DNA of 64,000 nt from contig NZ_OY780939.1 in the NCBI RefSeq assembly GCF_963675975.1, forward strand, positions 806,001 through 870,000, in the 5' to 3' direction. The DNA comes from Halarcobacter sp. (GTDB taxonomy: Bacteria; Campylobacterota; Campylobacteria; Campylobacterales; Arcobacteraceae). The number at the start of each line of letters is the position of its first letter. The stretch's first letter is position 1. The notes beneath the pieces were generated by a model, which saw only the letters and a program-made list of their open reading frames with translations, was not told where the DNA came from and ran no database searches. Below, in pieces: positions 864-40,184 of this stretch. The position numbers were made by a program, and so were the translations under genes.

Positions 864-3704
864 TTAACAGTTTTTTGCTTTTGTTACCTTATCAATTAAG
901 TAGAAAATTGAGTTATAATCTAAGTCTGAGTGTTCACTTAATCCAATTTCACAAGTTTTAGAAGTACTAAATGCATATTTTGCATTTTTTGTATCTTCTT
1001 TTAAAAATCTAAGTGCAGAATCGTTTAATTCTGGGAAATTAAATCCTCTATCTCCTGCAAATCCACAACATTTTACATTATCAGGAACAATTACATTTGT
1101 TGAACACATATTAGCAAGTTCAATAAATTTTTCATGTAATCCCATTTTTCTTGAACTACAAGTTGTGTGAATAGTAATTGCTTCATCAATCTTCTCAAAA
1201 TCTAATTCAGGTGATAAAAGTTCTAATGCAAATTCTATAGGTTCATATAGTTTTATATCTGATTTAAAGTTTCCAATCATCGTTTTAGTACATGGACTTG
1301 TATCACATAAAACTGGATATTGACCAAAATTGCTTATCTCATTTAACTCTTTTTCTAATTCATCAGATTTTATTTGTGCTTGCTCTTTAAAACCTTTTGA
1401 TGAAAAAGGCATCCCACAACATAAGTTTTCCATATTATTAGGGAAAAGTATTTGAAAACCAGCTTTTTTTAGAAGTTTGATTGTTACATCAAATAACTCT
1501 TCATCAACTGTAGTTTTTGAATTTCTTCCCATACTTCTATTTATACAAGAAGGGAAATATACAACTTTTTTATCTAGTTGTTGTTGCTCAAAATTTGTAT
1601 TTATCTTTATAGATTTTGGAAGATATGGGCTCCATTTTGGTATTTTCCCATTTGACCAATCTCTAAATGTAGATGTGATTGATTCCATACTTGATGTTCC
1701 AAGTATTTTATGAACTAAATTTGCTCCTGATAAACCAACTCTCATACCTTTTAAGGTAGTTGAATAATTATTTGCAATTTTTGAAGCTATATTATTTGCC
1801 GTATCACTTATTTGTTCAGCTCTTAAGTATTTTGTTAAACTTCCTGTATCAATTTTTACAGGACAGGCTGTTGAGCATAAAGAACATGCAGCACAAGTTT
1901 CTAATCCATCATATTGATATGCATCCATATACTCTTTTGCTTCTTCATTTTCCCCTATAGATTCTAATCTTGAGATCTCTCTATTTACTACAATTCTTTG
2001 TCTTGGTGTTAGAGTAATATCATTTGATGGACATGTTGGTTCACAAAATCCACACTCTATACATGTATCAACTAGATTATTAGTTGCTGGCATAGCTTTT
2101 AGGTTTTTTATATGAGCTTCAGCATCATCATTTATGATTACACCAGGATTTAAAAGCCCTTTAGGGTCAAATAGCTCTTTTATTCTTTTCATCATTGAGT
2201 ATGCAGTTTTACCCCACTCTACTTCAATAAATGCAGCCATGTTTCTTCCTGTACCATGCTCTGCTTTTAAGCTACCTTCATATTTAACTGCAACTTGATT
2301 TACAACATCATTCATAAAGGCATCATATCTTTTAACCTCTTCATCTGTTGAGAAATCTTGTGTAAATACAAAGTGGAAGTTCCCTTCTAAGGCATGACCA
2401 AAAATTAAAGCTTCGTTATAGTTGTGTTTTTTAAATATCTCTTGAAGTTCAAGAGTAGCTTGTGCAAGGCTTTCAATTGGATATGCAACATCTTCAATAA
2501 TTACTGTTGTTCCTATATCTCTTACAGCTCCTACTGCTGGAAATAAACCTTTTCTTATTTTCCAGTACATAGTGTACTCTTTTACATCAGTTGTAAAATA
2601 GAAATCTCTAACAACTTTAAACTCTTCTAAAAGCTCTTCAATCTCTTTAATTTGTACTTTTAATGCTTCGTCGCTTACTGCTCTAGTTTCGATTAAAAGA
2701 GCTGTTACCTCTTCATCAAAATCTTTTATAAATTCTGGCATTGCTGGGTCGTTTTCTATACTTCTAAGCCCTGCTCTATCCATAAGCTCAACTGCATCAA
2801 CAACTATTGTTTTTGAATCCCTAGCAAGTTTCAATTTTGTAACAGCACTACAGGCTTCTTCTACATTTTTAAAGTAGATTAGTGCACTTGCTTTATCTTT
2901 TAAATCCTCAACTGTTTTATAAGTAATCTCTTCAATAAAAGCTAAAGTTCCTTCACTTCCAATAATTAAGTGTTGTAGGATTTCAAATTCATCATCAAAA
3001 TCTGTTAGGGCATTTAGTGAGTAACCGCAAGTATTTTTGATTTTGAATTTTCTTTCAATTTTTTCTTTTAATTCTTTATCATTTTTTGTTTCTGTTGCAA
3101 TTGCATTTAAACTTTCTAAAAACTCTTTATGTGTCTGTCTAAAACTATTTTTACTTTGTTCATCTGCTGTATCAAGCTTAGTTCCATCTGCAAAGATTAA
3201 TTTCATAGAATCAACTGTTTTATATGAGTTTTGAGAGATTCCACAACACATACCAGATGCATTGTTTGCTGCAATTCCACCTATCATAGCTGCATTTATA
3301 GAAGCTGGATCGGGACCAATTTTTTTAGAAAATGGTGCTAAAATATTGTTTGCTTCTTGTCCTGTAAGTGCAGGTTGAAGTGAAATAAGTGATTTATCTT
3401 CTGAAACTCTAAAGTCTCTAAAGTTTCTTGATGTAACAATTAAAATTGAGTCACTAATCGCTTGTCCTGAAAGTGAAGTTCCTGCTGCTCTAAATGTAAC
3501 ACTTAGTTCCATCTCGTTTGATAGTTTTAATATATCTTCAACCTCTTTAGAAGTATCAGTTTTAATAACTATTTTTGGAATAAGTCTATAAAAAGAAGCA
3601 TCTGTTCCATAAGCTAATGTGTGTAATTTATCTGTAAAAATCTTTTTTGTATCAATTTGTTTTGATATTTCGTTATAAAAATCTTGGTATTTACCCTCTA
3701 ACAT
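864..3704 (-). CDS. dld: FAD/Fe-S D-lactate dehydrogenase (Dld-II type)
   Basis: A 946-residue fusion: an N-terminal FAD_binding_4 domain (GTSLSGQA near residue 75, GPDPAS near 131, GGIAANNASGM near 142), an FAD-oxidase C domain ending in HGTGRN, two ferredoxin-type [4Fe-4S] motifs (CIECGFCEPTCP near 548 and CAACSLCSTACP near 603), and a C-terminal pair of CCG heterodisulfide-reductase-like motifs (CCGMPF near 760, CCGFAGDRG near 878). Known relatives oxidise D-lactate and pass electrons to the quinone pool at the inner membrane. It sits downstream of a TRAP transporter and close to lutABC, which supports lactate as substrate. Glycolate or another 2-hydroxyacid cannot be excluded from sequence alone. 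The ATG has an AAAGGA site seven bases upstream. Confidence 0.85.
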   Translation of the reverse strand: MLEGKYQDFYNEISKQIDTKKIFTDKLHTLAYGTDASFYRLIPKIVIKTDTSKEVEDILKLSNEMELSVTFRAAGTSLSGQAISDSILIVTSRNFRDFRVSEDKSLISLQPALTGQEANNILAPFSKKIGPDPASINAAMIGGIAANNASGMCCGISQNSYKTVDSMKLIFADGTKLDTADEQSKNSFRQTHKEFLESLNAIATETKNDKELKEKIERKFKIKNTCGYSLNALTDFDDEFEILQHLIIGSEGTLAFIEEITYKTVEDLKDKASALIYFKNVEEACSAVTKLKLARDSKTIVVDAVELMDRAGLRSIENDPAMPEFIKDFDEEVTALLIETRAVSDEALKVQIKEIEELLEEFKVVRDFYFTTDVKEYTMYWKIRKGLFPAVGAVRDIGTTVIIEDVAYPIESLAQATLELQEIFKKHNYNEALIFGHALEGNFHFVFTQDFSTDEEVKRYDAFMNDVVNQVAVKYEGSLKAEHGTGRNMAAFIEVEWGKTAYSMMKRIKELFDPKGLLNPGVIINDDAEAHIKNLKAMPATNNLVDTCIECGFCEPTCPSNDITLTPRQRIVVNREISRLESIGENEEAKEYMDAYQYDGLETCAACSLCSTACPVKIDTGSLTKYLRAEQISDTANNIASKIANNYSTTLKGMRVGLSGANLVHKILGTSSMESITSTFRDWSNGKIPKWSPYLPKSIKINTNFEQQQLDKKVVYFPSCINRSMGRNSKTTVDEELFDVTIKLLKKAGFQILFPNNMENLCCGMPFSSKGFKEQAQIKSDELEKELNEISNFGQYPVLCDTSPCTKTMIGNFKSDIKLYEPIEFALELLSPELDFEKIDEAITIHTTCSSRKMGLHEKFIELANMCSTNVIVPDNVKCCGFAGDRGFNFPELNDSALRFLKEDTKNAKYAFSTSKTCEIGLSEHSDLDYNSIFYLIDKVTKAKNC

Positions 3705-32991: not shown

Positions 32992-33953
32992 TTTATTCCT
33001 GCTTCAATTAAATCATGGATATGTAATACACCTATTATCTCATTATTTTCATTAGTAATAATTAAAAGCTGTATTTTATAGTCTTCTACAATCTTTAAAG
33101 CATCACTTGCTAATAGATTTTTATTGTTTATTGTTTTAGGATTTTTAGTTGAGATTGTATCTACACTATTTTCTATTGAAAAGTTTTCACTCATTAATGC
33201 TCTTCTTAAATCTCCATCACTTAAAACCGAATCTAAACGATTATTTTCATCTATTATAAGAACGTTTCCAAGTCTTCCTTCACTCATTGTTACTATTGCA
33301 TCTTTGATTTTCGTTTCACGTGAAACAATTGGAAGATTATCTTTTTTTAGTAAATCATCTACTTTTATAAATAGTTTTTTACCTAAGCTACCACCTGGGT
33401 GAAATGAAGCAAAATCCTCTTTTTGGAAATCTCTTTTTTTCATAAGACAAACTGCTAACACATCTCCCATTGCAAGTGTAAGTGTAGTAGAAGAGGTTGG
33501 GGCAGTATCTAAAGGACAAGCCTCTTTTGTAACACTTATATCAATAAATATATCAGAATATTTACCTAAAGTAGATTCAATATTTTTTGCCATTGCAATT
33601 AATGGAATATCAAATCTTTTAATATGAGGTAATAGTTGAATTAATTCTTCACTTTCACCACTATAAGATATACCAAGAACTATATCATCTTTTCCAATCA
33701 TACCTAAATCCCCATGCATAGCTTCAGTAGGGTGAAGGAAAAAAGATGAAGTTCCAGTACTAGCTAGAGTAGCAGCAATCTTTGCTCCAATAAGCCCTGA
33801 TTTACCTACACCTGTAACTATAACTTTACCTTTGCAATCATAAATTAGATTTATCGCTTTCTCTATATCAAAAGAAGAGATATTTTCTGAAGCAATTTTT
33901 AATTCATTTGCTTCAATATCTAATACCTCTTTTGCTATTTTATTAAAATCCAT
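32988..33953 (-). CDS. kdsD: D-arabinose 5-phosphate isomerase (KpsF/GutQ/KdsD)
   Basis: A 321-residue protein: a SIS sugar-isomerase domain (GKVIVTGVGKSGLIGAKIAA, SSFFLHPTEAMHGDLGMI, SYSGESEEL) followed by two CBS domains (about residues 205-320). It converts ribulose 5-phosphate to arabinose 5-phosphate for Kdo in lipopolysaccharide. ATG at 33953 is chosen because AAGGAAATAAAA stands before it; more upstream codons lie inside the RNase J gene. A parS-like palindrome lies in the coding sequence at 33312-33327, where it encodes VSRETK. Confidence 0.93.
   Translation of the reverse strand: MDFNKIAKEVLDIEANELKIASENISSFDIEKAINLIYDCKGKVIVTGVGKSGLIGAKIAATLASTGTSSFFLHPTEAMHGDLGMIGKDDIVLGISYSGESEELIQLLPHIKRFDIPLIAMAKNIESTLGKYSDIFIDISVTKEACPLDTAPTSSTTLTLAMGDVLAVCLMKKRDFQKEDFASFHPGGSLGKKLFIKVDDLLKKDNLPIVSRETKIKDAIVTMSEGRLGNVLIIDENNRLDSVLSDGDLRRALMSENFSIENSVDTISTKNPKTINNKNLLASDALKIVEDYKIQLLIITNENNEIIGVLHIHDLIEAGIK
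33312..33327. promoter_or_regulatory. parS-like ParB-binding site within kdsD
   Basis: CGTTTCACGTGAAACA matches the widely conserved parS consensus TGTTTCACGTGAAACA at 15 of 16 positions, including the whole 14-bp palindrome GTTTCACGTGAAAC. ParB of many phyla binds this sequence to organise the origin-proximal chromosome. A second copy of the palindrome lies 5.4 kb away. Confidence 0.7.
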
Positions 33954-37531: not shown

Positions 37532-38200
37532 ATGAAGTTTTTTAATCTATTGTTATTACCAGTTTTTGGATTTTCTTTTCAGTTAGAGTTTACAAAAGAG
37601 TTCACTCATCAATTACCTCATGATACTTTAAGTGCTAACTTAATGATTACAATTGAAGATGAAACAGAAAATATTGTAAACGATAGATTTAAAGTTTTCA
37701 ATAAGAAGATAAAGAATTTTAATATAGTTGAAAGAGAGCTAGAAAAATTTAATATCAGACCTAAATATCGACACATATCAAGTACTCCAAAAATCACTGG
37801 ATATGTTGGAGAATTAAGATATAAAATAAATTCATATAAAGCGAAAGATATGCATATGTTTATATCTGAACTTACAGAATTGAAAAGATTTAGAGATACA
37901 ACAGTATCTGTTAGTAATCTATCTTGGAGTGTAAAAGAAGAAACTTATAATGTAACTTTAGATCTTTTAAGATTTGAAGCAATTAGTTGGGGTAATACTT
38001 ATGCTAACAATTTATCAAACGATTTAAAAAAAGATTGTGTTCTTGAAAAAGTACAAATTGATAAAGACAAAATAAACGATAACAGCAATGTAAATATTCT
38101 TTATAGTAACACTCTAAATAATTCTAAAGATGTTGATGTTCCTGATGCAAAAGAGGAAAGAGTTACTATTTATCCTAAATATTTTTTGGAGTGTAAATGA
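37532..38200 (+). CDS. SIMPL-domain (DUF541) exported protein
   Basis: A 222-residue protein with a short signal peptide (MKFFNLLLLPVFGFSF) and a SIMPL/DUF541 domain: beta-rich, with IRPKYRHISSTPKITGYVGELRY and a NLSWSVKEETYNVTLDLLRFEAISWG stretch. Members are periplasmic or outer-membrane proteins with no settled function. It is packed between hisF (one base) and the nucleosidase-like gene (four-base overlap), so it is co-transcribed with them. Confidence 0.75.
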   Translation: MKFFNLLLLPVFGFSFQLEFTKEFTHQLPHDTLSANLMITIEDETENIVNDRFKVFNKKIKNFNIVERELEKFNIRPKYRHISSTPKITGYVGELRYKINSYKAKDMHMFISELTELKRFRDTTVSVSNLSWSVKEETYNVTLDLLRFEAISWGNTYANNLSNDLKKDCVLEKVQIDKDKINDNSNVNILYSNTLNNSKDVDVPDAKEERVTIYPKYFLECK

Positions 38201-38742
38201 TAGTTTGTGCAGGAAGAAATGAAACTTTTAATTTTGCTCAACCAGTTGGGGTTGGCTTAATTGAAAGTGCAATCAATCTTACAAGACAATGTTTGTTTGA
38301 TAAGCCAGATTTTTTACTTTTTATAGGTAGTGCAGGTAGCTATGGAAATCATAATATTTTTGATATTGTTGAATCAAAAAGAGCAGCAAATATTGAGCTT
38401 TCATTTTTAAATGATGATTCATATACACCTTTAGATAATGTATTGGAGTCTGAAAATAAAATGGTGAGAAATGACACTATAGTAAATAGTTCAAATTATA
38501 TATCTAAGAACTTTGAATTATCTAAGCAGTTTAATGAATATGGAATAGGTATTGAAAATATGGAATACTTTTCTATAGTACAAGTTGCACGAGAATTTGA
38601 AATACCTGTTGCAGGTATATTTGTAATTACAAATTATACAAATGATAATGCACATAAAGATTTTATAGCTAATCACAAAGAAGCAATGGCTAAGTTAACT
38701 AAGTACTTAGAAGAAAAGAAAATTATAAAAAGTTTCACGTGA
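38197..38742 (+). CDS. Phosphorylase-superfamily (nucleosidase-like) protein
   Basis: A 181-residue protein that looks like a compact purine nucleoside phosphorylase/MTAN-fold member: VCAGRNETF near the start, LLFIGSAGSYG, GIGIENMEYFSIVQVAREFEIPVAGIFVIT near 115-148. The Met-Glu pair that binds ribose in MTA/SAH nucleosidases is kept, but the catalytic Asp that follows in I-S-D is Asn here (VITNYTND). Activity is therefore uncertain; the fold assignment is moderately secure. Its stop codon (38740-38742) lies inside a parS-like palindrome. Confidence 0.7.
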   Translation: MIVCAGRNETFNFAQPVGVGLIESAINLTRQCLFDKPDFLLFIGSAGSYGNHNIFDIVESKRAANIELSFLNDDSYTPLDNVLESENKMVRNDTIVNSSNYISKNFELSKQFNEYGIGIENMEYFSIVQVAREFEIPVAGIFVITNYTNDNAHKDFIANHKEAMAKLTKYLEEKKIIKSFT

Positions 38743-38746
38743 AACG
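38731..38746. promoter_or_regulatory. parS-like ParB-binding site over the nucleosidase-like stop codon
   Basis: AGTTTCACGTGAAACG holds the full 14-bp parS palindrome GTTTCACGTGAAAC and matches the 16-bp consensus at 14 positions. The right half merges with the beginning of the repeat array that follows, so it may also have formed when that repeat inserted. Confidence 0.6.
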
Positions 38747-38936
38747 TCGTAAAGAAAACGTGAACTGCTTCACGTTTTTAGACGTTGAAAGTGTAATGGT
38801 ATGCGAAGCATCCATGGAACTCGAGGAACGTCGTTAAGAAAACGTAAACATTCTTACGTTTGACCTTGAAAGCGAAGCAGTCTGCAAAGCAGTCATAAAA
38901 TTCGAGGAATATCGAAGTGAAAACACAAACTTTTCA
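38743..38936 (+). repeat. Tandem palindromic repeat: two copies of about 82 bases plus a decayed third
   Basis: Copy 1 (38743-38826) and copy 2 (38827-38907) align end to end from AACGTCGT to TTCGAGG/CTCGAGG with one 3-base indel; 38908-38936 resembles the first third again. Each copy holds two hairpins. Hairpin A is a ten-pair stem with CTGC loop at 38755-38778, and an eight-pair stem at 38840-38861. Hairpin B is ATGC/GCAT at 38801-38811 and CTGC/GCAG at 38892-38902 minus 10 (38882-38892). Stem changes between copies are compensatory. One frame encodes ENVNxxTF-DxESxxVCxA-type peptides in both copies. Confidence 0.8.
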
Positions 38937-39116
38937 AAAAAAGAATGTAAGAAAAAGAGTAACTAAATTTGTAGTATCATCCTAAACATGAACTACAAAA
39001 GTTAAATAAAAACATTAAGTTTTAGTACTAAAAAAAGACACAAGAAAATTTAAATACTATACGAAAAAATATATAGTAAAAGTAAAAACCTATAAATATT
39101 AAAAGAAAAGGTAAAC
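38937..39116. other. AT-rich leader region ahead of rlmN
   Basis: The remainder of the 374-base gap between the nucleosidase-like gene and rlmN. It is very A-rich, has no reading frame with a ribosome site, and ends in AAAGAAAAGGTAAAC before the rlmN ATG. A promoter such as ACTATACG near 39055 is possible but unproven. Confidence 0.4.
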
Positions 39117-40184
39117 ATGAATTCAATATATGATTACACATTAGATGAGTTAAAAGGAAAATTAAAACCAAGCTTTAGAGCAAAGCAGGTTTACAATTGG
39201 ATATATAAAAAATATGTAACTTCATATGACGATATGAAGAATATTCCAAAAGATTTAATTCAAGATTTAAAAGAAAATTATCCAATAGATATTTTAGAGA
39301 TTGTTAAAAAAGAGAAAAGTTCTGATGGAAGTATAAAGTATCTATTTAAATTAAGAGATGGACATACAGTTGAATCTGTACTTCTTCTAATGAAGAAAAA
39401 AGTTATAAATGATGATGGAACAATTGAACAAAGTGAAAAATTCACCGTTTGTATCTCAACACAAGTTGGATGTAAAGTAGGGTGTACATTTTGTCTTACA
39501 GCAAAAGGTGGATTTGTAAGAAATCTAACAGTTGGTGAAATAGTAAATCAAATTGTACAAATAAAAAGAGATAACAATATTCCTGAAAACAAAACATTAA
39601 ATATTGTTTTTATGGGTATGGGTGAACCACTTGATAATTATGACAATTTTGTTCATTCAGTAAAAGTATTTTCAGAAGAAGATGGACTAGCAATAAACAG
39701 AAGAAGACAAACAGTTTCAACTTCAGGATTATCAACAAAAATTGAAAAACTTGCAAATGAAGAACTTGGTATTCAACTTGCTATCTCTTTACATGCAGTT
39801 GATGATGATTTAAGAAGTGAATTGATTCCTATGAATAAAGCATACAATATAAAATCAATTATTGATGCAGTTAGAAAGTTTCCAATTGATACTAGAAAAA
39901 AAGTTATGTTTGAATATTTGGTTATAAAAGATAAAAATGATGATATTGAATCTGCTAAAAAATTATTGAAATTATTAGATGGAATTAAAGCTAAAGTAAA
40001 CTTGATATATTTTAATCCTTATCCAGGTACTTCATATCAAAGACCACAAAGGGATGATATGGTAAAATTCCAAGAATATTTAACAAGTAGAGGTTTACTA
40101 TGTACAATTAGAGAATCAAAAGGACTTGATATCTCTGCTGCATGTGGACAATTAAAAGAGAAGGAAACAAATGCAAGCTCTTGA
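39117..40184 (+). CDS. rlmN: 23S rRNA (adenine2503-C2)/tRNA methyltransferase RlmN
   Basis: A 355-residue radical-SAM enzyme with CKVGCTFC (CxxxCxxC cluster ligands near residues 119-126), MGMGEPLDNYDNF, STSGLSTKIEKL, LAISLHAVDDDLRSELIPMN and the C-terminal SRGLLCTIRESKGLDISAACGQL containing the methyl-carrying Cys. It methylates A2503 of 23S rRNA and A37 of some tRNAs. AAAAGGTAAAC precedes the ATG. Its last 14 bases overlap a small membrane protein gene. Confidence 0.95.
   Translation: MNSIYDYTLDELKGKLKPSFRAKQVYNWIYKKYVTSYDDMKNIPKDLIQDLKENYPIDILEIVKKEKSSDGSIKYLFKLRDGHTVESVLLLMKKKVINDDGTIEQSEKFTVCISTQVGCKVGCTFCLTAKGGFVRNLTVGEIVNQIVQIKRDNNIPENKTLNIVFMGMGEPLDNYDNFVHSVKVFSEEDGLAINRRRQTVSTSGLSTKIEKLANEELGIQLAISLHAVDDDLRSELIPMNKAYNIKSIIDAVRKFPIDTRKKVMFEYLVIKDKNDDIESAKKLLKLLDGIKAKVNLIYFNPYPGTSYQRPQRDDMVKFQEYLTSRGLLCTIRESKGLDISAACGQLKEKETNASS

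Follow-up and report, generated by a model that had tools for sequence, protein, structure and literature searches.

In the window, meaning the whole 64,000-nt stretch of Halarcobacter sp. (Arcobacteraceae) DNA that was analysed, two palindromic units stand head to tail between a phosphorylase-superfamily gene (ORF 38197..38742, + strand; Pfam PF01048) and rlmN, the gene for an RlmN-type 23S rRNA methyltransferase (ORF 39117..40184, + strand; Pfam PF04055 and PF21016). The TGA stop of the upstream gene (38740–38742) falls inside the anchor of the first unit. A pattern search placed the palindrome GTTTCACGTGAAAC, which we take to be parS-like from the known consensus, at 38732..38745 (no strand assigned), and GTGAAAC, the right half of this palindrome, serves the element as its 5′ anchor.

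The units were compared with a covariance model, R1, trained on 18 copies of the element (10 from the host's taxonomic family, none from the host genus). Copy 1 (38739..38820, + strand) was full length, with a GTGA anchor, P1, a P2 hairpin, a linker and a P3 hairpin, and scored 62.4 bits against R1, with E values of 1.4e-12 for the window and 7.2e-11 for the complete genome. Its P2 hairpin (38755..38778, + strand; AAAACGTGAA-CTGC-TTCACGTTTT) has 10-nt arms that are 100% complementary, and its P3 hairpin (38796..38815, + strand) reads ATGG-T-ATGC-GAA-GCAT-CCAT; both are covarying helices, and the 5′ bulge of P3 is 1 nt here and 2 nt in 166 of the 198 copies collected. Copy 2 (38824..38890, + strand) is a degraded tandem unit that resembles copy 1, abuts it at the left end and lacks the GTGA anchor (15.9 bits, E 0.11). 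The two copies were identical in 64 of 85 alignment columns with a score of 98; 2000 letter shuffles averaged 16.8 (sd 6.7) and reached 39 at most. A possible third, decayed left end (38908..38936, + strand), described earlier as a third copy from 38908, was seen by eye and gave no model match. The 231-nt region folded with z = -2.88, a value equalled by 2 of 200 shuffles, and the P2 hairpin was not called as an intrinsic terminator in a scan of 38600–39200.

A preliminary description of the locus had placed the copies at 38743–38826 and 38827–38907, aligned by a single 3-base indel. The two stretches do align with a net difference of 3 nt, but over more than one gap, and the true start lies at 38739 with GTGA, the first seven bases being the right half of the parS-like site. 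The compensatory swaps that it had reported in hairpin A (CGTG/CACG versus CGTA/TACG) and in hairpin B (ATGC/GCAT versus CTGC/GCAG) are both present.

A family of three-helix elements in Campylobacterota

Related elements of ~83 nt with three helices occur in Campylobacterota, and the repeat is one of this family. A DNA search with the two copies found only the repeat itself in its own 3.27-Mb genome and gave matches in 26 of 104 host-family genomes, own included; the best were the same locus in the host genus, and the others lay elsewhere with the core hairpin in common. The exact 14-base core occurred at 53 places in 27 of the 104 genomes, and its backward control at none. R1 detected three copies in the own genome and, at E ≤ 0.001, the element in 60 of the 104 genomes (own included), with one to eleven matches per carrier genome of the host's taxonomic family. 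Copies in related genomes, which the preliminary description had proposed to search, were numerous, and with the three matches in the own genome and the compensatory stem changes they support its model of a palindromic element, one that is apparently mobile.

Beyond the host family, a class-wide scan with one core pattern and 2 mismatches gave 82 matches in 46 of 397 genomes, although its backward control was also positive (23 matches in 20 of 397). A 20-base exact-core pattern recovered 115 stretches from a collection of public genomes of 84,980 species, where ~7 would be expected by chance on a uniform-base estimate. By record title, 64 were from Campylobacterota (Arcobacter-like bacteria, Sulfurovum, Sulfurimonas, Sulfurospirillum, Nautiliaceae and others), 24 from Patescibacteria, 7 unnamed and 20 from others. 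R1 was run on 96 of the 116 core-pattern loci (these 115 and one from IMG/VR), the 20 omitted being Arcobacter-like. Of the 20 stretches titled as from other organisms, 14 matched in the P2 part only, 2 gave no match and 4 matched over more. In Patescibacteria, 7 of 24 scored 34–50 bits, above the P2 hairpin alone (about 20–27), and P1 was paired too at two loci (L217 and L301); the remaining stretches scored low or matched little beyond P2. An exact pattern search of the IMG/VR viral collection yielded one stretch with a full copy (91.2 bits), and one DNA-similarity query each against plasmid and phage records gave no match. No published description of the element was found in literature titles and abstract beginnings, which is not proof that it is unpublished; the element core, searched as literature text, matched a paper on Rhodospirillum centenum.

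Three side observations were made during these searches. A spacer of an apparent CRISPR array in G081 (L049 / L120, around 1501–1519) holds the 14-base core, which may mean that the element occurs on phages or plasmids, or may be chance. A contig titled Helicobacter pylori PMSS1 MAG (L264) carries the element of G050:C10, a contig of the host's taxonomic family, and the title looks wrong. A different hairpin repeat with the core AAAGTGAAAAGCTTCACTTT was seen in other genomes of the order (L134 and L139), in tandem in L139.

The anatomy was derived from 198 copies at 164 loci chosen among those fetched; the copies are non-independent and orthologous sites are counted repeatedly, so that p-values are too small. 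From 5′ to 3′ the layout is an anchor [A/G]T[G/A]A, P1 (5 bp), a CGTTAAG-like linker, P2 (11 bp), P1′, a GRAACCGNA linker, P3 and a GAAGG end. The P2 loop was CTGC in 143 of 198 copies, a count biased by core selection, as most of the 85 rows of alignment A5 were found via the exact core. The commonest form of the first linker contained TTAA (85 of 198). Compared with a MITE of a DDE transposon, for which terminal inverted repeats and a target duplication would be expected, the conserved ends, GTGA... and ...GAAGG, are not inverted repeats of each other. When anchor and linker covariation was tabulated as a sign of a guide sequence, nothing clear emerged. In G057 (L003, from about 1540), the locus of the window copy holds an amplified P3 part in the form of a ~60-nt tandem array.

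All three helices covary. In 18 rows, 95.9% of 410 cells were paired compared with 34–43% in slid controls, which extends across copies the stem compensation noted at the outset; two larger alignments (A4 and A5), fitted to the model and thereby favouring its pairs, were 96.3% (113 rows) and 95.0% (85 rows) paired. Two-sided stem changes far exceeded one-sided ones. These results show that the stems covary while the unpaired words are conserved.

The pairs themselves bear on whether the folded molecule is RNA or DNA. A cis-acting structured RNA at gene 3′ ends, in which P1/P2 and P3 after the stop would protect the message or partly terminate it, in which the end (GGAGG/GAAGG) could serve as the ribosome binding site of the next gene, and for which spread of the module would be secondary, is the main rival and in our judgement a serious but rather unlikely explanation. 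Its helices would be poor in wobble pairs for RNA: G.U made up 1.8–2.0% of standard pairs (one often-G.T pair excluded) versus 7.2% in 94 tRNAs from the same loci, a share that fits DNA better than RNA but is not decisive. Mismatches were more often G.T than A.C (72 versus 26), which agrees with an RNA and suggests that the molecule that folds is the single sense strand, with the caveat of a possible bias of the model towards G.U. No known Rfam family matched at the element in 22 sources at E limits of 5, 1 and 2.

The coding potential of the repeat was also assessed. As previously described, copy 1 is read through in one frame that continues across copy 2 with a single interruption, a TAA at 38835–38837, and two copies elsewhere lie in frame inside genes; a coding repeat, as a short gene or protein module, would account for this. 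Preservation of the frame did not extend to the family: it was open through 23 of 128 copies with a recognised core, compared with ~16% for a shuffled single frame, and a stop lies in the conserved linker. With the frame unconserved and TAA in the commonest linker form, the window copy is not coding. As far as frame conservation goes a coding repeat is refuted, and we give it next to no credence.

Gene ends, the parS-like site and the 5′ anchor

Genes around the copies were called by a simple ORF rule, and tandem followers were sorted by rule. An upstream ORF ended within 60 bp of 140 of the 198 copies, and the element was sense to it in 135 of these 140; among the other five, L141 at least was an ORF-calling artefact. 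The upstream stop fell at element positions 2–4, in the anchor, in 65 of 198 copies and at 12–14, the linker TAA, in 17. Downstream ORFs within 60 bp were on the same strand in 59 cases and on the opposite strand in 28. Where the upstream gene lay within 60 bp and its stop outside the element, 24 of 29 copies were still sense, so the sense bias cannot come from stop-codon targeting alone. Copies adjoin groEL and thiG, and one lies in a 23S-5S rRNA spacer. The site before thiG (Pfam ThiG) is occupied in five genomes of four genera, and copies are also kept at other sites across genera. The sense orientation, the placement of upstream stops and the thiG site speak for a 3′-end RNA, and persistence of the thiG type together with the residual sense bias fits a useful RNA of this kind; a purely selfish element need not persist across genera.

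Insertion inside genes, a check proposed in the preliminary description, was seen in two of 198 copies (L171 and L180), which lie sense and in frame inside longer ORFs; one was compared with homologues. In L180 the element forms a 25-residue insert in an HlyD-like ORF that is absent from 6 aligned homologues (about 30–35% identical), and since the ORF has 263 aa and the homologues about 440–510 aa, this gene could be a degraded one. Ten copies in all had been classed as "inside" an ORF; visual inspection put the remaining eight down to antisense ORFs or start extensions. Two near-identical copies were observed about 1 kb apart in an apparent Rhs-type gene region of G074 (L176); they were considered as an autonomous element and rejected, since by eye they enclose part of an apparent Rhs-type gene.

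At the window locus, GTTTCACGTGAAAC was found between the upstream gene and rlmN in all 16 host-genus genomes (16/16), with or without the element. R1 matched there in 10 of 16 genomes, in sense orientation only in 6, antisense only in 2 and on both sides in 2; the other 6 had no R1 match, a remnant being visible by eye in one of them, G060. Full first copies, ten in number, began at offset 0 of a GTGAAAC half-site. A further two matches were partial (30.0 and 18.9 bits; model positions 10–41; one of them weak, E 0.037) and began at offset 10, fitting the same start, and three further copies lay 84–136 nt downstream. An RNA acting at the 3′ end of its gene does not readily account for the two genomes in which the element lies on the strand opposite to the upstream gene (and, on visual inspection, to rlmN too), or for the two with copies on both sides. 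The own genome holds GTTTCACGTGAAAC at two places, both perfect, in a pattern search allowing up to 1 mismatch; the second lies at window 33313–33326, about 5.4 kb from the first, with no R1 match there.

A similar comparison was made at groEL (Pfam Cpn60), whose stop was TAA in 12 of 16 genomes and TAG in 4 of 16. An R1 match followed the stop directly in 6 of 16 genomes, all with TAA, and was absent directly after it in 10 (6 TAA, 4 TAG). In two of these 10 genomes (G056 and G062; L406 and L411), a similar two-hairpin architecture with unrelated stems, missed by the model, was seen by eye after the groEL stop.

The anchor differed between first copies and tandem followers. The second anchor base was T in 158 of the 174 first copies but in 6 of the 24 tandem followers; first-copy anchors were GTGA in 102, ATGA in 24 and GTAA in 15 of 174. 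The word is not fixed, as [A/G]T[G/A]A fitted 142 of 174. Taken together, the parS-like locus, groEL and the tandem followers make the 5′ anchor look like a pre-existing target and not a part of the element. At the two loci compared, the word 5′ of the element also stands in genomes that lack the element; these loci are not near-identical between genomes, and no near-identical pair of empty and filled sites gave base-exact ends.

Probable mobility and the candidate enzyme

On this evidence the repeat is probably a non-autonomous, strand-specific mobile palindrome of REP/IS200-like type. This reading is based on the wider family and its covarying stems, on the anchor word that also occurs without the element at two loci, on the excess of G.T over A.C mismatches, on one viral copy and on one in-frame copy. 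The antisense copies at the parS-like site, together with the in-frame copy, also speak for mobility. The sense strand alone would fold into P1/P2 and P3; once cut out and joined as a DNA single strand, the element would be inserted 3′ of GTGA-like words by a trans-acting enzyme. Gene ends would then be over-represented because the anchor word contains a stop (TGA or TAA), so that insertion there is harmless, and the parS-like site would be hit on either side because each strand of the palindrome carries GTGA. At the window locus, the element would have landed on the right half of this site and then been tandemly copied. Mobility and function may both apply, in that an element able to move is retained in some cases for its hairpins.

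As to the enzyme, a TnpA(Y1)/HUH nuclease of the IS200/IS605-REP type is by analogy a plausible candidate, to which we give slightly less than even confidence. Y1_Tnp had 60 matches in host-family genomes, and 30 of these loci were fetched and scanned by regular expression and model, with hairpins listed around 20 of them (L106 and L108 excluded). Most of the Y1_Tnp ORFs with an H-Y-H motif were 226–276 codons from stop to stop. Within about 1.5 kb of these 30 loci R1 found nothing at E < 0.5, its best score being 12.9 bits (E 0.78). Across genomes there was a weak co-occurrence, the element being present in 30 of 36 with a Y1_Tnp match versus 30 of 68 without one (P = 1.4e-4), and the association was less clear when stratified by genus (z 2.78). 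Two element-rich genomes had no Y1_Tnp match, G103 (11 copies; 86% complete) and G093 (7).

A motif scan of the 30 loci returned L090 in G087 and one doubtful match in L096. In L090 an element-like CGTTAG-hairpin-TAG lies in a larger palindrome ~240 bp upstream of a Y1_Tnp ORF, in a region that folds strongly as DNA (z -5.41); with filters off, the hairpin scored 8.3 bits against R1 (E 2.4). We regard it as a lead only, with no model support. The stretch L416 4599–5532 (G087:C7) has a Y1_Tnp ORF with a large upstream palindrome holding an element-like hairpin, and a second Y1_Tnp ORF (2418–3218) about 1.4 kb off. A different palindrome, CCCAG..CTGGG, was noted in the loci L100, L073, L347 and L363: it flanks a Y1_Tnp ORF in G102, and element copies in G100 and G102 abut palindromes similar to it.

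Another structure-recognising recombinase, for instance an integrase of the integron type with attC-like folded sites as its substrate, was also considered as the mover. attC sites fold as a single strand into a bulged stem with conserved unpaired bases and lie at gene ends. The element resembles them in fold, unpaired bases, gene-end position and bulged stem, the bulge being 2 nt in most copies, but its occurrence beside groEL and thiG and in the rRNA spacer counts against such an enzyme, no cassette array was noticed, and we find this very improbable.

If the repeat is indeed a mobile palindrome, the parS-like locus is a natural experiment on site choice, since genomes of a single genus have the element on either side of a palindromic target, on both sides or on none, and native stop codons that carry it in some genomes and not in others offer a second comparison. 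The element would be a candidate substrate for transposase-like proteins that were reported without one, and in it the paired sequence changes while the unpaired words are retained. Were it an RNA instead, Campylobacterota would have a widespread 3′-end RNA module, one for which the searched loci gave no Rfam match.

Comparison with known palindromic elements

As reviewed, Rickettsia palindromic elements are ~150 bp long, encode conserved peptides and lie nearly half in genomic ORFs (PMC10969869). The preliminary description had drawn an analogy with them, which holds in principle, as the present element is also a palindrome able to sit in frame inside genes; unlike them, it does so in 2 of 198 copies and has no conserved frame.

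IS608, of the IS200/IS605 family, is described as having subterminal hairpins at both ends and inserting 3′ of a fixed TTAC that is kept as its left flank (PMC5934647). The present element likewise has subterminal hairpins in one strand (P1/P2 and P3) and a tetranucleotide as its left flank, but it comes without a transposase gene or a linked copy, and its tetranucleotide is different and looser. According to a further source, TnpA(Y1) subclass 2.1 is prevalent in epsilon-, beta- and deltaproteobacteria, with no REP nearby (PMC6006769). Genomes of the carrier family similarly hold Y1_Tnp ORFs with the H-Y-H motif, which may belong to this subclass; the 30 Y1_Tnp loci scanned had no significant element match beside them. 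It is conceivable, though we put this forward as speculation that is more likely wrong than right, that the element represents a third superfamily of mobile palindromes, with GTGA-like 3′ anchoring, two single-strand hairpin units, a range of Campylobacterota and Patescibacteria and stop codons or parS as safe harbours, and serving as substrate of a REP-less TnpA(Y1).

REPs tagged by GTAG or CGTC are described as small palindromes of 20–40 bp, in high copy numbers in some genomes, that lie mostly downstream of coding regions and in some cases inside ORFs; the GTAG type is thought to be mobilised by RAYT, and its ends often supply the TAG stop to flanking ORFs, while the REP transposase unit may be missing, CGTC repeats occurring without a dedicated one (PMC3733652). 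The same source reports GTAG and CGTC repeats in Sulfurovum sp. NBC37-1, which may overlap part of the present element. Like REPs, the element is palindromic, lies at gene ends, gives stop codons and has some copies in ORFs. Whereas these REPs carry an unpaired GTAG or CGTC at one foot of a single hairpin, the element has three helices and a mostly GTGA anchor, with a GTAG foot at P3 in 8 of the 198 copies. REP elements are the nearest known kind, and the present element differs from them in size (~83 nt compared with 20–40 bp), in its architecture of three helices, in its anchor, [A/G]T[G/A]A, and in its copy number of one to eleven per carrier genome.
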